From Anaerolineae bacterium CG2_30_64_16 (GTDB taxonomy: Bacteria; Chloroflexota; Anaerolineae; CG2-30-64-16), in the NCBI GenBank assembly GCA_001871755.1, contig MNXL01000393.1:1-33349 (forward strand): DNA of 33,349 nt, read 5' to 3'. The stretch's first letter is position 1. Every line of letters begins with the position of its first letter. This document shows, one piece after another, positions 1,732 through 31,939 of this stretch. The notes below the pieces were generated by a model. It did no database searches. It saw only the letters and a list, made by a program, of their open reading frames with translations, and was not told where the DNA came from. Position numbers and translations under genes: made by a program.

Positions 1732-4422
1732 ATGATGTTCAACAAGGACAGGCGTCTGCCTGGCCCGACGCAGGCGCACGCAAGGCAATGGGCGCTGGTG
1801 ATCCTGGCGTTGCACCTGGCCCTTGGCGGCCTCTACAGCGTCGTGGCGCCGCCCTGGGAGGCGCACGACGAATGGGCGCACTATAAGTTCGTGGAATATG
1901 TCGCACGTCATCGGGCATTGCCGCCCCCCGACGTGCGTTTGACAAACGAATACGAGTACGACGAAGCCAATCAGCCGCCCCTCTACTACGTGATCGCTGC
2001 CCTGCCGGTCATGCTGATCAACACGGACGACGGGGTCATCCCCGACGTCAATCCGCATTTCGGCACCGGGACTGGCGCCGGCGGCATCAACGCCGCCATC
2101 CACCACCCCGACCAGGAACGCTTTCCCTGGCGCGGGACCATCCTGGCGCTACACCTGGCCCGCTGGGCATCCCTGGCGATCAGCCTGGTGGGACTGGTCG
2201 CGGTCTACAAGCTGGGACGGCTGTTGGCCCCGGGGCGACCCTCCGTGGCGCTGATCGCCCTGATTATCGCGGCGCTGTCGCCGCAGTCGCTGTTCATCAG
2301 CAGCGTGGTCACCAACGACGTGCTGATTGCCGCGTTGGGGTGCGTGATCGCCTGGTTGGGAACTGAGGTCGTGCTGAACGGCTTGCGACCGCGATCGGCG
2401 CTGGGGCTGGCCCTGACGACCGGGCTGGCGTTCGTGAGCAAGCTGTCCGCGTTGGCATTGGCGCCTTTCGTGCTCCTGGCTCTGATCGCCGGCGCGATCC
2501 GTTCGCTGCGCCGGGGCAGCAACCGGCTGACCGTCCTGCTGACCTTTGCGATCCCGCTGGCTGGCGGGTTGGCGATCGGCGGGGCGTGGGTCGCGCGCAA
2601 CGTGCGGCTGACCGGGCAACTGCTGCCGCGGGACCCGTGGGTAGCGTTCCGTTTCGTGGACCGCTGGTTCAGCCGCACCGGCACGGTCAAGCCGATACAG
2701 TGGGAGGCGCTGCCCTCCGCGCTGGTCTACGGTTTTCGCACCTTTTGGGCGTCCTTCGGCTGGGGTAACCTGGAAGCGTACAGGTGGGTGTACTGGTTTT
2801 TTGCCGCACTGTGCCTGGTTGCGTTAGCCGGGTTGGGCCGCTGGGCGTTCGCGGGACGCGAGGGTGCAACGCCACGGCGGGTGAAAACCTCACCCCCCTC
2901 CCCCCCTCTCCTACGAGGCGAGGGGGGTGTCGGCGCTCCCCCTCCTTCGCAGGGAGGGGGTCGGGGGGTAGGTGGGCGATTTTCAGGGCAGTTTTTCATG
3001 CCGTGTCCGCCGCCACGACGGATGAAAAACGGACGGCCTGGACTGGAGGCTTTAGCCGGTTTGGTTGTCAGCGGCAGAAACCGGCTGAAGCCTCGATTCC
3101 AGATCGTTGGTGGGCGATTTTCAGGGCAGTCTGGGCGGGACAAGAAGATCGCGGCCGGGTTGCTGCTCGTGTTGGCCGCGTCCGTGCTGTTCATGGCCGC
3201 CTACCGTGACTTCGACTACGGTGGCACGCTGATCCGAGGGCGTTATCTGCTGCCCGCGCTGGGAGCGGTCGCGACCCTGCTCGCGTTGGGGCTGGATAAT
3301 CTTGTCTGCCGTCCCGGCTCGGTCTCAGGCCGGCCAGAGCATGCTAGATGCGCGGTCCCGCTGGTGTTGACCTGCGTGCTCACCATCTTCAACCTGCTGT
3401 TGCCGCTGAACGTGATCGGGCCGGCCTATGCACCGCCGGCGATGCTGTCCACCGCCGATCTGTTGCCGAGAGAACAGCCGTTGGACGCACGTTTCGGGGA
3501 CGCGGCCGAACTGGTGGCCTACGGACTCTGGCCCGAGCGCGTCCGGACGGGCGATGCGCTGGGCGTGACGTTGCTCTGGCGCGTGCTGGCGCCATTGGAT
3601 CGGAACTACACCGTCGGCGTGCACCTGTTGAACGCGACAGACCAGGGCAAAGTGGGCGAGCTCAACATCTACCCCGGCCGCGGCAACTATGCCACCACGC
3701 TGTGGCAGCCGGGAGACCTGTTTCGCGAGACCTACTGGGTCACGGTCGGCCAGGCGATCGCGCAGCCGGTCATGGGTCGGGTCAAGGTGGCGCTCTTCGC
3801 CGATGACGCCGGGCAAGCCGCATCTGAAGAAACGTATCTGCCGGTGATCGATGCTGCGGGCCAGCCGTTGGGCGATGCTTTGATGTTCGGCCGGTTCAAG
3901 TTGGCGCCCATGGAGCCGGCAGCCGTGGCCGCCGCTCAGGGTCCCGGCCTGGCGACGTTGGGTGAGTTCGCTCGCCTGGAGAGCGCGACCTGGCCAACCG
4001 ATATCCCGCATCTGTTAGCCGGCAGCACCTTCACCGTGACGCTGACGTGGGGAGCTCTGGCCCGGCCGCCGGCCGATTATCAGGTTTTCCTCCACGTGGA
4101 AGGACCGGACGGCCCGCTGGCTTTCGGTGATGGCCCGCCGCAAGCGGGCGCCTATCCCACCGGCCTCTGGGAGCTGGGCGAGCAGATCGTGGACCCGCGG
4201 GTGGTCCGGTTGCCGACCGAGATGCCGGCGGGCGACTACCGACTGGTAACCGGGCTGTACGACGCGGCCGGCCAACGCGTCATCGCGACCGGCCCGGACG
4301 GTCAGCGGCTGGCCGACGATCAGATCGAATTGGGGCGCGTCACCGTGGCGCGCCTGGACCAGCACAATTACATCCCTTGGGCGCCTGGGCATGCCGTGGA
4401 CGGGAACAACAAGGAGCCTTGA
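1732..4422 (+). CDS. Large polytopic membrane protein, GT39/DUF2142-like (putative glycosyltransferase) with C-terminal soluble domain
   Basis: ATG at 1732 after ggagg; N-terminal PPWEAHDEWAHYKFVEYV motif, many TM segments, Chloroflexota-style C-terminal beta domain. Carries an in-frame repeat insertion at about 2885-3130. Confidence 0.75.
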   Translation: MMFNKDRRLPGPTQAHARQWALVILALHLALGGLYSVVAPPWEAHDEWAHYKFVEYVARHRALPPPDVRLTNEYEYDEANQPPLYYVIAALPVMLINTDDGVIPDVNPHFGTGTGAGGINAAIHHPDQERFPWRGTILALHLARWASLAISLVGLVAVYKLGRLLAPGRPSVALIALIIAALSPQSLFISSVVTNDVLIAALGCVIAWLGTEVVLNGLRPRSALGLALTTGLAFVSKLSALALAPFVLLALIAGAIRSLRRGSNRLTVLLTFAIPLAGGLAIGGAWVARNVRLTGQLLPRDPWVAFRFVDRWFSRTGTVKPIQWEALPSALVYGFRTFWASFGWGNLEAYRWVYWFFAALCLVALAGLGRWAFAGREGATPRRVKTSPPSPPLLRGEGGVGAPPPSQGGGRGVGGRFSGQFFMPCPPPRRMKNGRPGLEALAGLVVSGRNRLKPRFQIVGGRFSGQSGRDKKIAAGLLLVLAASVLFMAAYRDFDYGGTLIRGRYLLPALGAVATLLALGLDNLVCRPGSVSGRPEHARCAVPLVLTCVLTIFNLLLPLNVIGPAYAPPAMLSTADLLPREQPLDARFGDAAELVAYGLWPERVRTGDALGVTLLWRVLAPLDRNYTVGVHLLNATDQGKVGELNIYPGRGNYATTLWQPGDLFRETYWVTVGQAIAQPVMGRVKVALFADDAGQAASEETYLPVIDAAGQPLGDALMFGRFKLAPMEPAAVAAAQGPGLATLGEFARLESATWPTDIPHLLAGSTFTVTLTWGALARPPADYQVFLHVEGPDGPLAFGDGPPQAGAYPTGLWELGEQIVDPRVVRLPTEMPAGDYRLVTGLYDAAGQRVIATGPDGQRLADDQIELGRVTVARLDQHNYIPWAPGHAVDGNNKEP
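2885..2990. repeat. Palindromic GC-rich repeat element, copy A (inside the GT39-like CDS)
   Basis: aacctcacccccctccccccctctcctacgaggcgaggggggtgtcggcgctccccctccttcgcagggagggggtcggggggtaggtgggcgattttcagggca; two inner hairpins and complementary C-rich/G-rich ends; near-identical to 31836-31937. Confidence 0.9.
2971..3130. repeat. 22-bp perfect direct repeats bracketing two further palindromes
   Basis: ggtgggcgattttcagggcagt at 2971-2992 and 3109-3130, offset 138 bp; between them gtttttcat...atgaaaaac (2991-3030) and a 25-bp-arm inverted repeat 3038-3062/3078-3102 with 22/25 matches. Confidence 0.9.
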
Positions 4423-18205: not shown

Positions 18206-18933
18206 GCGCGTTACACGAGAGCATCGAGCGATTGATCCAAAAACTAAAACACGACCCCGGCTACCGCGTGGACCCGGTCCTCTCGACCGGAGATTTGATC
18301 GAGTTGCTGTGGGCGCGCGGGGTGGCGCTGTGGCGCGGGTTGTGGTTACGCTGCCGGGTGGGCAGCGCCGATGGGCTGCTGTTCGTGGCGCGGGGCGTCC
18401 GGGTGCGTCACACCGGCCATCTGCACCTGGGTCGCAATGTCACCCTGGAGGAGCACGTCCAGATCGACGCGCTGAGCCGCGATGGCGTGCGGCTGGGCGA
18501 CAACGTCAATGTGGGCCGCTTCACCGTGATCGAGGCCACCGGCGTCATCACCAGGCTGGGGGTGGGTTTCAGCATCGGCGCCAACTCGAATCTGGGCGAC
18601 TTCTGTTTCGTGGGCGCGGCCGGCGGCGTGCGCATCGGGGAGAACGTGCTGATCGGGCAACGGGTCAGTTTTCACAGCGAGAACCATGTGGCGACGCGGG
18701 TGGACATCCCCATGAAGGCGCAGGGCGTCACCAATCAGGGGGTCGTCGTGGAGGACGATTGCTGGCTCGGTTCGGGCGCGATCTTGTTGGACGGGGTAAC
18801 GGTCGGCAGGGGGAGCATCGTGGCCGCCGGCAGCGTCGTGACCAGGGATGTGGCGCCGTATAGCGTGGTGGGTGGCGTACCGGCGCATTTGCTCCGCAAC
18901 CGCCTGCCCCAAAGTGAAGTGCAAGATGCCTGA
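18202..18933 (+). CDS. Left-handed beta-helix (hexapeptide) acyltransferase
   Basis: Hexapeptide repeats (IGANSNLGDFCFVGAAGGVRIGENVLIGQRVSFHSENH, VVEDDCWLGSGAILLDGVTVGRGSIVAAGSVVTRDVAPYSVVGGVPA). Confidence 0.92.
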   Translation: MSALHESIERLIQKLKHDPGYRVDPVLSTGDLIELLWARGVALWRGLWLRCRVGSADGLLFVARGVRVRHTGHLHLGRNVTLEEHVQIDALSRDGVRLGDNVNVGRFTVIEATGVITRLGVGFSIGANSNLGDFCFVGAAGGVRIGENVLIGQRVSFHSENHVATRVDIPMKAQGVTNQGVVVEDDCWLGSGAILLDGVTVGRGSIVAAGSVVTRDVAPYSVVGGVPAHLLRNRLPQSEVQDA

Positions 18934-21658
18934 ACTGCCCGCCTCCACCGGATTTTCCACGACGCAGCGCCCGGTGCCGCGCCCGACCTGGCTCTGGCTG
19001 ATCGGGGCCGGGACCGTCCTGGCCGCGGGCGCCGTTTTCGGTCCATTGCCCGCCGCGTTACTGGTGCTTGCTCTGCTGGGAGCGCTGGTGCTCCTGCGGG
19101 GTTGGCCGGTCAGTGGCATGGTGCTGCTCGTCGCCGCGGCGATGCTGACGCATTTCAAGGCCGACGTCGGTCCCGTTTCAGTGCGCCCTGAACACCCGGC
19201 AATCTTGCTGGTCGGCGCGCTGTGGCTCTGGCAGATCATCATCCACCAAAGGCCGTTTCGCCTGGACTGGCCGGCGTTCTTCGCCCTGGCCTGGTTCGGG
19301 CTTAACGTGGGGGCCACGCTGGCCAACGCGCCCGATCCCGGCGACTCGTTGCGCCACATCTTCCGGCTTTCCCTGATGGTCGCCACCTACGTCGTGGGGA
19401 TCAACCTGTTGCGGACGCCGCGCTCGTGGACGGCGGCCTTCCACGGGTTCTTGCTCCTGGCGTTCGGCGAGGCTGCGTTCGGTTTGATCGCCCTGGCGCT
19501 GTACCGTTTCGGCATCAACGTGGGGGTGCAAACGGCCTGGGTGCTGACCCATCCCGTGCCGTACGGCACGCTGGAAGAAGGCAACATGTTCGGCAGCCAT
19601 TCGGCGGCCTGGCTGATCGCCTTTCTGGCGCTTTTCCTGGCTCACTCGGCCCGGTTTTCCTCCCTCAGGTCAAAGCTCTCCGGCCTATCGCTCCCACTGG
19701 GGGCCGCCGTCGCCGGGACCGGGCTGGCGGTCCTGCTTAGCTTTAGCCGGGGCGCCTGGCTGGCGTTGCTGGTCGGGCTGGCGCTGCTTTTCATCTACTA
19801 CAGCCCGCGCAGTCGCGGCCAGTACCTGCGCGGCACACTGCTGGCGCTGGGTGGACCATTCCTGGTCATCAGCTTGTTGCTGCTGATCCAGACCCTACCG
19901 GAAAGCGTGCCGCTGGCCGCCCGCCTGCGCACTTTCACCACTCTGGCCAACGATCCCACCGTCAATTCCCGGCTGGGCAACTACTACGAGGGCCTGATGG
20001 ATTGGGCGGCCCATCCCTGGCTCGGCTGGGGACCCGGCACTTTTTACCAACTGCACGGCATCCGCAACTGGGCGCCCGCCTGGCTGAGCAATCAGATCGT
20101 GCGCACGCTGCAAGAAACCGGCGTCTTCGGACTGTTGGCTTATGGTGGTTTCGTGGTCACGTTGCTCTGGGCGGCGGCGCGCGGTATCCGGCGTGCCTCA
20201 AATCCGCACAACCGGGCCGCGTTGCTGGGCCTGACGCTTGGCTTCGTGGTCCTGCAAGTGGCCTACCAGGCCACAGATGGCACCTGGCTGGCCGCGATGT
20301 GGGTCCAGGCCGCGCTGCTGGCGTCAGGGGCGCGGTTGATCGGGGATCGGCAAATCGGCAAATCGGCAAATGGCAAATGGCAAATGGCGCAATCCGCAAT
20401 CCGCAATCCGCAGTCCCAAATCCGCAATCCCCAATCCCCAATCCCCCTTCTCTTCATCCACAGCTCCGACGAAATGTACGGCTCGGACGTGGTGCTGCTG
20501 GAGTTGCTGCGGCGGCTCGACCGGACCCGCTTTGCGCCGCTGGTGGCGCTGCCGACCGACATCACCTACGAACAGGGCCAGGCCCGGCTCAGCGACGAGC
20601 TGACGAAGCTGAGCATCCCCGTCCGTCACATCGATTTCGCGGTGCTGCGCCGGCGCTATCTCAGCCCGCGCGGCCTGCCCGGGTTCGCGCGGCGGCTCTG
20701 GCGCGGGAGTCGGGAGTTGGCCGATTGGATGCGGAGCGCAGACGTAGCGTTGGTCCACGCCAACACCGTGGCCGTGCTGGGCGGCGCGCTGGCCGCAAAG
20801 CTGGCGGGCCGGCCGCTGCTGTGGCACGTGCACGAGATCATCGTCGAGCCGCGCTGGCTGCGCTGGCTGATCGCCCGGCTGGTCACGGCCGCGGCGGATC
20901 GGATCGTGGTCATCTCCGGGCCGGTGGCCGAACATCTGTTGGGGCTGGGCGCGGCCCGGGGCGCGCGGGATAAAGTCATAGTGATCCCGGACGCGGTCGA
21001 CACCGAGCGGTTCAACCCCGCCAACGATGGCGCGCCGGCGCGGGAGGCGTGGGGCATCCGGCCGGACCAGGTGCTGATCGGCATGGCCGGCCGGATTCAC
21101 ACCTGGAAGGGGCAGGGCGTGCTGGTGGAGGCCGCGCGACTGCTGCGCGACCGCTGCGCCGAGGCCCGGTTCGTGATCGCCGGCGACATCGTGCCCGGCC
21201 AATCGGCGCCCAAGGAGGCGTTGGAGGCGGCCATCGCCGCGGGCGGGCTGGCCGATCGGGTCCAGTTGGTTGGTTTCTGGCCGGACGCCCGCCAGGTGAT
21301 GGCCGGCCTGGACGTGCTGGCGCTGCCCAGCACCGCGCCGGAGCCGTTCGGGCTGGTGGTGCTGGAGGCGATGGCCAGCGGCAAGCCGGTGATCGCCACC
21401 GCGGCCGGCGGCCCGCTGGAGATCGTCGGCGATGGCGAAACCGGGCTCCTGGTACCCCCGCGCGACCCGGCCGCCCTGGCCGACGCCATCGAGCGGCTGG
21501 TCCGTGATCCCGATCTGCGGGCGCGCATGGCCGCGGCCGGCCGGCGCCGGGCGGTGGAGAAGTTTGGGTTTGCTGCGCATATAGTAACGTTTGAGCGAGT
21601 ATATCAAGCACTGCTCGCTTCCAAAGTCGCTATTGGATTCGCCAGTCGGAGACGTTAG
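18926..21658 (+). CDS. Fused O-antigen ligase/polymerase-like membrane domain + C-terminal GT4 domain
   Basis: ATG at 18926 (MPELPASTG); Wzy/WaaL-like TM domain with FSRGAWLALLVGLALLF and NYYEGLMDWAAHPWLGWGPG; then LFIHSSDEMYGSDVVLLELLRRL...VIPDAVDTERF...PEPFGLVVLEAMASGKPVIATAAGGPLEIV. The two are joined by a repeat-encoded linker (20343-20448). Confidence 0.85.
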   Translation: MPELPASTGFSTTQRPVPRPTWLWLIGAGTVLAAGAVFGPLPAALLVLALLGALVLLRGWPVSGMVLLVAAAMLTHFKADVGPVSVRPEHPAILLVGALWLWQIIIHQRPFRLDWPAFFALAWFGLNVGATLANAPDPGDSLRHIFRLSLMVATYVVGINLLRTPRSWTAAFHGFLLLAFGEAAFGLIALALYRFGINVGVQTAWVLTHPVPYGTLEEGNMFGSHSAAWLIAFLALFLAHSARFSSLRSKLSGLSLPLGAAVAGTGLAVLLSFSRGAWLALLVGLALLFIYYSPRSRGQYLRGTLLALGGPFLVISLLLLIQTLPESVPLAARLRTFTTLANDPTVNSRLGNYYEGLMDWAAHPWLGWGPGTFYQLHGIRNWAPAWLSNQIVRTLQETGVFGLLAYGGFVVTLLWAAARGIRRASNPHNRAALLGLTLGFVVLQVAYQATDGTWLAAMWVQAALLASGARLIGDRQIGKSANGKWQMAQSAIRNPQSQIRNPQSPIPLLFIHSSDEMYGSDVVLLELLRRLDRTRFAPLVALPTDITYEQGQARLSDELTKLSIPVRHIDFAVLRRRYLSPRGLPGFARRLWRGSRELADWMRSADVALVHANTVAVLGGALAAKLAGRPLLWHVHEIIVEPRWLRWLIARLVTAAADRIVVISGPVAEHLLGLGAARGARDKVIVIPDAVDTERFNPANDGAPAREAWGIRPDQVLIGMAGRIHTWKGQGVLVEAARLLRDRCAEARFVIAGDIVPGQSAPKEALEAAIAAGGLADRVQLVGFWPDARQVMAGLDVLALPSTAPEPFGLVVLEAMASGKPVIATAAGGPLEIVGDGETGLLVPPRDPAALADAIERLVRDPDLRARMAAAGRRRAVEKFGFAAHIVTFERVYQALLASKVAIGFASRRR
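20343..20448. repeat. Simple tandem repeat tract (atcggcaa / atggcaa / atccgca / atcccca units) within the fusion CDS
   Basis: ggatcggcaaatcggcaaatcggcaaatggcaaatggcaaatggcgcaatccgcaatccgcaatccgcagtcccaaatccgcaatccccaatccccaatccccc. Confidence 0.93.
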
Positions 21659-25859: not shown

Positions 25860-25930
25860 TGACCCCCCGTCACTGTCTGCCCTGAAAATACACAACGAAT
25901 GGGGAAAACAACGAATTTCTTGCTGTGGTC

Positions 25931-26040
25931 GGCTTCGTCCTGAGGCTCGCGAAGGGTCTACGACCGAGCTACCGTTTTCATGCACCGTGGCCCTTCGACG
26001 AGGCCCTTCGATAGACTCAGGACACGGCTCAGGACAGGCG
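25931..26040. repeat. Intergenic composite repeat of cttcg(a)...ctcagga type in opposed orientations
   Basis: cttcgtcctgaggctcgcgaagggtc (about 25933-25958) opposed to gcccttcgacgaggcccttcgatagactcaggacacggctcaggacaggc (about 25990-26039). Confidence 0.8.
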
Positions 26041-26229
26041 CCGCGCTCGGCATGAACACTATCCGTATCCTCTCAAAAAGGTGGGGACGAATCTGCTCAA
26101 GCCGAGTCCGTGACTCGGCGGGCGAGCGGCGGATCGCTGTGAAGGGGCGCTCAGCAGACGCGTAGCCAGGTGATGAATCGACCGATCCCCCGATTTGGCC
26201 CCTAACCGCCTTGCTGCTAGAATTGAGCG

Positions 26230-28635: not shown

Positions 28636-28653
28636 CTACCCAGGAAAACCGCC

Positions 28654-30141
28654 ATGTCCGATGAACCAATCTACACTCACGACACCTACCTCTCCCCCTT
28701 CACCTGGCGCTACGGGTCGGCCGAGATGCGCCGGCTGTGGGGTGAGACGCACAAACGCCGGCTGTGGCGCCGCATCTGGGTGGCGCTGGCCGAAGCCGAG
28801 CAGGCCGCCGGGCTGGTCACCGCCGAACAGGTGGCCGATCTGCGCGATCACGTGGAAGACATCGATCTGGCCCGCGCGCAGCAGATCGAGGCGGAGATCC
28901 ACCACGACCTGATGGCCGAGGTGCGGGCCTACGCGGAGCAGTGCCCGGCCGGCGGCGGGATCATCCACCTGGGCGCGACCTCGATGGATGTGGAAGACAA
29001 CGCGGACGCGCTACGCGTGCGGGACGCGCTCAACCTGGTGCTGGCCGGGCTGCGCCAACTGCTGTTGGCCTTCGCCCGGCAAATCGAATGCTGGGCCGAC
29101 ACGCCGACCCTGGCCTTCACCCACCTCCAGCCGGCCGAGCCGACCACCACCGGCTATCGGCTGGCGCAGTATGCCCAGGATCTGTGGATCGATTGGCAGG
29201 ACTTGAGCTGGTTGCGCGCCGGGCTGCGCGGCAAGGGGTTCAAAGGTGCGGTGGGGACGTCGGCGTCGTATGCACAGTTGCTGGACCTAACCCCCCAACC
29301 CCCTTCCCATGTAGGGAAGGGGGAGTTGAATCCCCCCCTTCCTTTGCAGGGAGGGGGGGCAGGGGGGGTAGGTGACTTCGAATCTCATATCATGTCCGTC
29401 CTGGGCCTTGATGCCTTCCCGGTCACCACCCAAACCTACCCCCGCAAACAGGACTATCGCGTGCTCGCCGCGCTGGCCGGGCTGGGGGGATCGCTTTACA
29501 AGTTCGCGTTCGATCTGCGCGTGCTGCAATCGCCCCCCATCGGCGAGTGGGCCGAGCCATTTGGCAGCCAGCAGGTGGGGTCGAGCGCGATGCCGTTCAA
29601 GCGCAACCCGGTCAACGCCGAAAACATCGACAGCCTGGCGCGCTTGCTGGCCGCGCTACCGCGGGTGGCGTGGGACAACGCCGCGCATAGCCTGCTGGAG
29701 CGCACCCTGGACGACTCGGCCAACCGGCGCAGCATCCTGCCCGAGGCGTTCCTGATGGCCGACGAGCTGCTGCGCCGCGGCTTCCGGCTGATCGAGGGGC
29801 TGACCATCAACCCTGACGCCACGGCCCGCCTGCTCGCCAACTACGGTGTCTTCGCCGCGACCGAGCGGCTGCTGATGGAATGCGTCAAGCGCGGGGCCGA
29901 CCGCCAGGCGTTACACGAGGTGATCCGCGCCCACGCGCTGGTCGCGTGGGCGCGGGTGCAGGCCGGGCAGCCGAACCCGCTGGCCGACCTGTTGTGCACC
30001 GACCCGCGCATCACCTGCTATGCCTCGCCCGAAGCAGCACACGCCTGGCTGGATGCTACAGACTACATCGGTGACGCACCGACCCGTGCGCGACAATTTG
30101 CGACTATGCTGCGCGAGCAATTACCGAAAGGAAGCTTGTGA
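28654..30141 (+). CDS. purB: Adenylosuccinate lyase with in-frame repeat-encoded insert
   Basis: MAEVRAYAEQCPAGGGIIHLGATSMDVEDNADAL; TFTHLQPAEPTTTGYRLAQYAQDL; VGTSASYAQLL; fumarase/aspartase-superfamily signature GSSAMPFKRNPVNAENIDSL. Confidence 0.95.
   Translation: MSDEPIYTHDTYLSPFTWRYGSAEMRRLWGETHKRRLWRRIWVALAEAEQAAGLVTAEQVADLRDHVEDIDLARAQQIEAEIHHDLMAEVRAYAEQCPAGGGIIHLGATSMDVEDNADALRVRDALNLVLAGLRQLLLAFARQIECWADTPTLAFTHLQPAEPTTTGYRLAQYAQDLWIDWQDLSWLRAGLRGKGFKGAVGTSASYAQLLDLTPQPPSHVGKGELNPPLPLQGGGAGGVGDFESHIMSVLGLDAFPVTTQTYPRKQDYRVLAALAGLGGSLYKFAFDLRVLQSPPIGEWAEPFGSQQVGSSAMPFKRNPVNAENIDSLARLLAALPRVAWDNAAHSLLERTLDDSANRRSILPEAFLMADELLRRGFRLIEGLTINPDATARLLANYGVFAATERLLMECVKRGADRQALHEVIRAHALVAWARVQAGQPNPLADLLCTDPRITCYASPEAAHAWLDATDYIGDAPTRARQFATMLREQLPKGSL
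29285..29373. repeat. Palindromic GC-rich repeat element, copy C (inside purB)
   Basis: Ends acctaacccccc / ggggggtaggt; inner hairpins CCCCCTTCCC-ATGTA-GGGAAGGGGG (29299-29323, perfect) and CCCCCCCTTCC-TTTGCA-GGGAGGGGGGG (29332-29359, 10/11). Confidence 0.95.
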
Positions 30142-31714: not shown

Positions 31715-31835
31715 GTCGCGTTCAAGGGAAACCTGGCTGGGCTGTAACCGTACCCGTGGGCATGTTGCGCATGGCCGCGAAAGATCGTATAATCAGCTCA
31801 GTTGATCGTGCCGGGCGTGACGCCCCGGCGGATGC

Positions 31836-31939
31836 AAACCTCACCCCCCTACCCCCCTCTCCTACGAGGCGAGGGGGGGCGGCGCTCCCCTTCCCTCGTA
31901 GGGAGGGGGTTGGGGGGTAGGTGGCCGATTTGCAGGGTA
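31836..31939. repeat. Palindromic GC-rich repeat element, copy B (intergenic, purH-pcm)
   Basis: aaacctcacccccctacccccctctcctacgaggcgagggggggcggcgctccccttccctcgtagggagggggttggggggtaggtggccgatttgcagggta; close match to copy A along its whole length. Confidence 0.95.

Follow-up and report, generated by a model that had tools for sequence, protein, structure and literature searches.

Two head-to-tail palindromic repeat units with constant ends in an inter-transmembrane loop of a PMT_2/GT39-like protein from an Anaerolineae bacterium

Introduction

Since palindromic repeat DNA runs through the open frame of a gene for a polytopic membrane protein at positions 1732..4422 (+ strand) of the window analysed here, the question arises what kind of element this DNA represents and how it came to lie there. 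The window, i.e., the whole stretch of 33,349 nucleotides under study, corresponds to contig C331 of a metagenome-assembled genome (MAG) from the Anaerolineae (Chloroflexota), which comprises 3.98 Mb in 409 contigs and is 75.7% complete (hereafter G000). A sequence-only reading had proposed a nesting of several repeat families, with three palindromic modules interrupting the protein over 246 bp from position 2885. From our point of view, the locus is better described as two tandem non-autonomous mobile repeats that were inserted recently, in frame and specifically in this lineage, into an inter-transmembrane (TM) loop, a reading to which we assign a probability of roughly 0.7.

Results

The host protein carries a lineage-specific insertion

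The gene encodes 896 aa in one open frame, matches the Pfam profile PMT_2 (PF13231; E 2e-6) and has orthologues in 59 of 60 relatives, the named relatives of its product being Chloroflexota/Anaerolineae MAGs. The Pfam family is PMT_2 and not DUF2142, which the earlier reading had also named. In an alignment with 18 orthologues, the anchors GNLEAY and KIAAG are 132 residues apart in G000 vs 42 in each of G005, G006 and G007, which represent three genera and have a loop of equal length at the insertion site. Orthologue loop lengths and predicted disorder place a net in-frame insertion of 270 bp, or 90 codons, at 2860..3129 (+ strand; left edge uncertain by ~11 bp), so that the insert is slightly longer than first described and begins at ~2860-2871. 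The 90-codon net gain bears out the proposal of an in-frame repeat insertion limited to this lineage; orthologues that are free of the repeats and still possess a homologous domain of equal length were looked for, and all 18 were found to be without an equivalent domain. A DNA-level comparison with empty sites was less informative, as the relatives are too diverged in the PMT_2 gene to fix the exact borders.

The insert is open and in frame 0 of the + strand, and the 430 codons on its 3' side are intact. In an AlphaFold model based on a 19-sequence alignment (mean pLDDT 82.7), residues 374-467 are predicted at a pLDDT of ~30 and are flanked by confident helices at 351-373 and 468-495, which confirms both flanking TM helices and the suspected inter-TM location. 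The predicted insert peptide is Pro/Gly-rich and includes FSGQFFMPCPPPR. In the nearest MAG, the sister HGW-Chloroflexi-1 (G001), a frameshifting deletion is found exactly at the PMT_2 insertion site (L057, G001:C25, near 2590-2625). Just upstream of the PMT_2 gene, the window also contains two copies of CGTCATTCCCGCGAAAGCGGGAATCCAG (1556-1583 and 1640-1667), a palindrome similar to the Neisseria dRS3 pattern ATTCCC(N8)GGGAAT.

The insert consists of two units of one element

Repeat detection recovered all three previously described features at their positions, namely the A palindrome (2891-2929, inside 2885-2975), the gtttttcat/atgaaaaac short inverted repeat (~2991-3029) and a long inverted repeat, although the arms of the latter, given as 25 bp with 22 matches, were measured as 30 nt (3033-3062/3078-3107) with 83% complementarity. 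The clue to the true architecture is a further repeat that had gone unreported, a 25-bp direct repeat at 2968-2992 and 3106-3130 (96% identical), which brackets the second half of the insert. The insert is made up of one element that is present twice, head to tail, with a different palindromic core in each copy. This element combines constant ends, (TTTCTCATGCCGnGCnCGnC)GCCACGGCGGATGAAAA on the left and ATTTTCAGGGCAG on the right, with a swappable palindromic core; in its general form, which we call a frame unit, the left end reads TTTCTCATGCCGnGCnCGnCGCCACGGCGGATGAAAA and the right end is again ATTTTCAGGGCAG.

Core A (CCTCACCCC..) comes first in the insert and core C (CTGGACTGGAGGC..) second, with all parts on the + strand. 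The first unit has a left end at 2871..2887 (GCCACGGCGGGTGAAAA), the 5' part of whose left arm is missing or degenerate, followed by the core A palindrome at 2888..2978 (CCTCACCCCCC...GGGGGGTAGGTGGGCG) and the right end at 2979..2991 (ATTTTCAGGGCAG). As the left arm is largely missing, the sequence here does not show where this unit begins on the left or whether a target was duplicated. In the second unit, the left end at 2992..3028 (TTTTTCATGCCGTGTCCGCCGCCACGACGGATGAAAA) is followed by the core C palindrome at 3029..3116, which harbours the long inverted repeat, and by the right end at 3117..3129 (ATTTTCAGGGCAG), a direct repeat of 2979-2991. As such, the supposed nesting of families resolves into tandem copies of a single frame element that recurs with many other cores, and the middle module, described earlier as a hairpin, proves to be the place where a right end meets a left end.

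The folding data agree with this division. The 270-nt segment folds well beyond its dinucleotide shuffles (z -4.9; 0/200), as do core A (z -3.5) and core C (z -6.4) when folded separately, whereas the middle 'hairpin' does not reach significance by itself (z -1.5). An Rfam scan of the window returned no RNA family.

The frame element is family-specific and its cores are interchangeable

When the modules were searched separately in the genome, as had been suggested, core A gave 36 matches, core C 34 and the middle piece 18, compared with 51 for the whole composite. Wherever the middle module occurs, a palindrome follows and the same right end usually precedes, and the palindrome varies by site. 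A strict left-end pattern has 27 matches in G000, one of them in the second unit of the insert, and none in the reversed control; it was further found in G001 (22), G005 (36), G006 (29) and G008 (3), and in none of the remaining genomes among 298 of the class, which makes it family-specific. Composite-like sequences, mostly cores, are present in 69 of these 298 genomes. The cores recorded comprise A, a second C-rich type, C, D, D2, E (GTCATTCTGAGCG), F, G, H, I, J (GTCATTGCGAGGAGCG), K, L and M; 13 representatives fall into 12 unrelated groups, with sequence shared by D and D2 only, and nine of the 13 show a significantly palindromic fold. Hence, the ends are constant and the core is interchangeable, and the element is confined to one family while its cores are class-wide and also occur in frame elsewhere.

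Frame layouts were sampled in ~0.77 Mb of contigs. The units are 110-220 bp long, and tandem arrays with an identical right-end/left-end junction were found on C202, C299, C158, C135, C70 and C314. No empty frame was present among 44 inspected, which runs counter to a simple model of palindromes entering a pre-existing frame, since such a model predicts empties. The window itself holds two further single units in intergenic positions, one with core A between purH and a protein-L-isoaspartate methyltransferase-like gene (31802..31937, + strand) and one with core D (25877..26059, - strand). Long open frames hardly ever contained the B and C modules of the copies examined, so that the PMT_2 case is unusual in having received two units at once, the first without part of its left end. 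In another Anaerolineae genome, ~15 core-C-like palindromes are arranged in tandem at ~73 bp spacing (G064:C251:24711-25805).

Core palindromes also occur in frame in other genes

The PurB gene of the window (28639-30138) bears an independent in-frame A-type core of 90 bp at 29285..29374 (+ strand), and its relatives have either no insert or other inserts at the same loop. This loop is short in G002, G003, G004 and G008, and none of the PubB crystal structures in the alignment has the insert. In G001, an A-type element is present, truncated and out of frame, with a frameshifting deletion within the palindrome (L165, G001:C290, near 2106-2215); this deletion and the one at the PMT_2 site could be either real, palindrome-linked deletions or assembly errors. 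PurB of G007, a member of another genus, contains an unrelated E-type (GTCATTCTGAGCG) palindrome in frame at the same loop (L166/L174, G007:C96). Judged from these comparisons, the loop appears to be a repeatedly used landing loop and the G007 insertion an independent one.

An in-frame A-type element is further borne by a hydantoinase, and a degenerate relative of that element was found in G005. Additional open reading frames with in-frame A cores encode proteins whose translations suggest an AddA-like helicase, an SMC-like ATPase and a pyruvate formate-lyase-like protein. A different kind of in-frame linker is seen in the window at 20357-20455, where AATCCGCAATCC-type short repeats lie inside the open reading frame 18848-21658 and apparently separate a membrane part from a glycosyltransferase part.

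Target sites, ends and transposase genes

Frame copies are usually preceded by TCAGnnYAG-like sequence. In a table of 28 copies aligned by hand, 16 of which are single, CAG or TAG stands at the end of the left flank in all but one of the single copies (15 of 16). Within a copy, the six terminal bases of the left flank and of the right end are identical in five of these 16, compared with 1.3 expected from shuffles (p ~0.003, from a small, hand-aligned table). In most single copies, the left and right ends are unlike.

No transposase was found beside the frame copies. The genome, at 75.7% completeness, has four Y1_Tnp genes, none of which is flanked by A, B or C modules; other palindromes are found there. 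At one of these loci (L160, G000:C42, 1345-2200), a Y1 transposase gene has on one side a tandem array of another palindrome (CCTGCTTCAGCAGG...GCCTGCGAATTCATTCGCAG), and gene and array likely constitute a REP-RAYT pair.

Discussion

The element would best be regarded as selfish DNA resembling the Rickettsia palindromic elements (RPEs) that is tolerated in its loop. Such tolerance would rest on an inserted length divisible by three, on the absence of stops from three of the six frames and on a predicted peptide that forms an unstructured Pro/Gly-rich loop. The two copies may have come in successive events or already joined to each other. We further propose, with less assurance than for the insertion itself, that units insert beside a TCAGnnYAG-like target; the ends were compared in a small table aligned by hand, and they might have been homogenised by recombination, which weakens this step. 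As the right end (TTTTCAGGGCAG) resembles the target, it would be regenerated with every insertion, the next unit could land directly downstream, and tandem arrays would build up by stacking. One candidate for the mobilising enzyme is a trans-acting Y1 (HUH) transposase.

Different explanations for the locus can be imagined. The first is that the pair arose by recombination, i.e., by unequal crossing-over or template switching between frame ends, in which case the arrays would be tandem duplications and the matching ends a product of gene conversion. The 13-25 bp direct repeats at the ends permit such events, and the B-C tandem on C314, being near-identical, has the look of a duplication. Simple duplication, however, does not yield neighbours with different cores, and adjacent units mostly differ in core (A-C here; F-C, F-D, E-D and G-D elsewhere), so that we consider this origin unlikely for the pair, with some real weight left to it.

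The second is that three unrelated palindromic families were inserted successively into one loop. It is true that cores can exist on their own, with no frame arm within 70 nt in seven of 14 A copies and six of seven C copies in the sampled contigs, and that nested insertions of other repeats occur in this genome, e.g., where CTTCGACAAGCTCAGG-type pieces occupy the left-arm loop. Nevertheless, the middle module coincides exactly with a right-end/left-end junction that recurs in arrays with other cores, and the B+C block recurs as a unit with both ends on C70 and C314 and also in G005 and G006. This scenario is thus distinctly improbable.

Thirdly, an assembly chimera or a frameshift artefact at repeats might be suspected in a fragmented MAG of 409 contigs and 75.7% completeness, all the more as the frameshifting deletions of G001 at both insertion sites indicate that the repeats are hard to assemble. 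Against this stand a host sequence that is continuous and orthologous on both sides, a reading frame kept across 270 bp and the same kind of insert in several genes, which leaves an artefact with very little probability. Finally, the insert might be a loop or domain that serves the glycosyltransferase and is kept by selection. The frame open through 90 codons with an intact downstream part could speak for this reading, which is nevertheless hardly to be expected given that 18 of 18 orthologues are without the insert, that it is predicted to be disordered, that similar peptides appear in unrelated proteins and that insert-type DNA elsewhere is mostly intergenic.

Returning to an insertion of two mobile units, no known family that we tested fits fully. 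The closest parallel are RPEs and the protein-coding palindromes of Wolbachia, which measure ~100-150 bp and are found between genes as well as in frame in unrelated conserved genes, where they encode loop-like peptides and are tolerated by the host protein (PMC2229807, PMC10969869). The present element likewise is a multi-copy palindromic repeat in the range of ~100-150 bp and lies in frame in unrelated conserved genes whose orthologues are without it (PMT_2 protein, PurB, hydantoinase). It differs in phylum and composition, probably in sequence, and in its constant ends, swappable cores and tandem stacking.

REP/BIME repeats of the GTAG/CGTC families are high-copy palindromes whose intra-ORF clusters code for 43-82 residues, GTAG repeats having been reported in Chloroflexi; REPs measure 20-40 bp, carry a GTAG or CGTC tag before the stem, have RAYT genes close by and are inserted within other palindromes in some bacteria (PMC3733652). 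We rejected this assignment, as the frame units are 110-220 bp long, GTAG in them is confined to the 3' end of core A and follows the stem, and no RAYT gene was found beside them in a genome of 75.7% completeness. The neisserial NIME, in which a constant short repeat (dRS3, a 20-bp inverted repeat) is combined in arrays with many RS repeat families of 30-160 bp (PMC3898611), share the mosaic of constant and variable parts; the frame ends, however, differ from ATTCCC(N8)GGGAAT and are two unlike ends rather than one inverted repeat, and the cores are palindromic and the insertions lie inside genes, which led us to discard NIME as well. The PATEs of Haloquadratum are transposase-free and bear palindromes that ~110-bp SMR-A repeats favour as insertion sites, with SMR-A present in only part of the PATE copies, e.g., in 9/19 of one type (PMC3119063). 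Palindromes inside palindromes recall SMR-A in PATEs, whereas none of the 44 frames inspected here is empty. Elements derived from IS200/IS605 have subterminal palindromes and insert 3' of a short fixed target that they leave unduplicated; the observation to set beside this is the CAG or TAG that precedes 15 of the 16 single copies.

Two more candidates were considered. The ends are not mutual inverted copies beyond TGAAAA/TTTTCA and the retrieved loci contain no autonomous relative, which does not suit a MITE; with respect to a target site duplication, the six terminal bases agree within a copy more than in shuffles (p ~0.003), the agreement being exact in five of the 16 single copies. No sequence link to a parent transposon of the IS605 type was found for the frame element either. 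An integron-like cassette array, suggested by junctions that have a different core on either side, was rejected, as TTN or ATG usually opens the left end and a GTTRRRY core site is absent. A literature search for such elements in Anaerolineae gave no paper that matched on every term.

One could speculate that the element is a mobile 'cassette' of one Anaerolineae family, with fixed non-inverted ends, head-to-tail stacking, at least 12 unrelated palindromes as obligatory cargo and a right end that serves as the next landing site, a tentative proposal that we would not yet expect to hold in full. A hairpin of any sequence between the ends may then be what the mobilising enzyme needs. If the element is indeed one mobile unit, its design of constant ends and a swappable core would be unusual for a small mobile element, and with copies, arrays and several carrier genera in hand, this is directly testable.

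Overall, the present study extends palindromic in-frame gene invasion, for which Rickettsia and Wolbachia with their reduced genomes are the best-known cases, to environmental Chloroflexota, the housekeeping gene purB included, and it suggests a broader route by which proteins can gain disordered loops.
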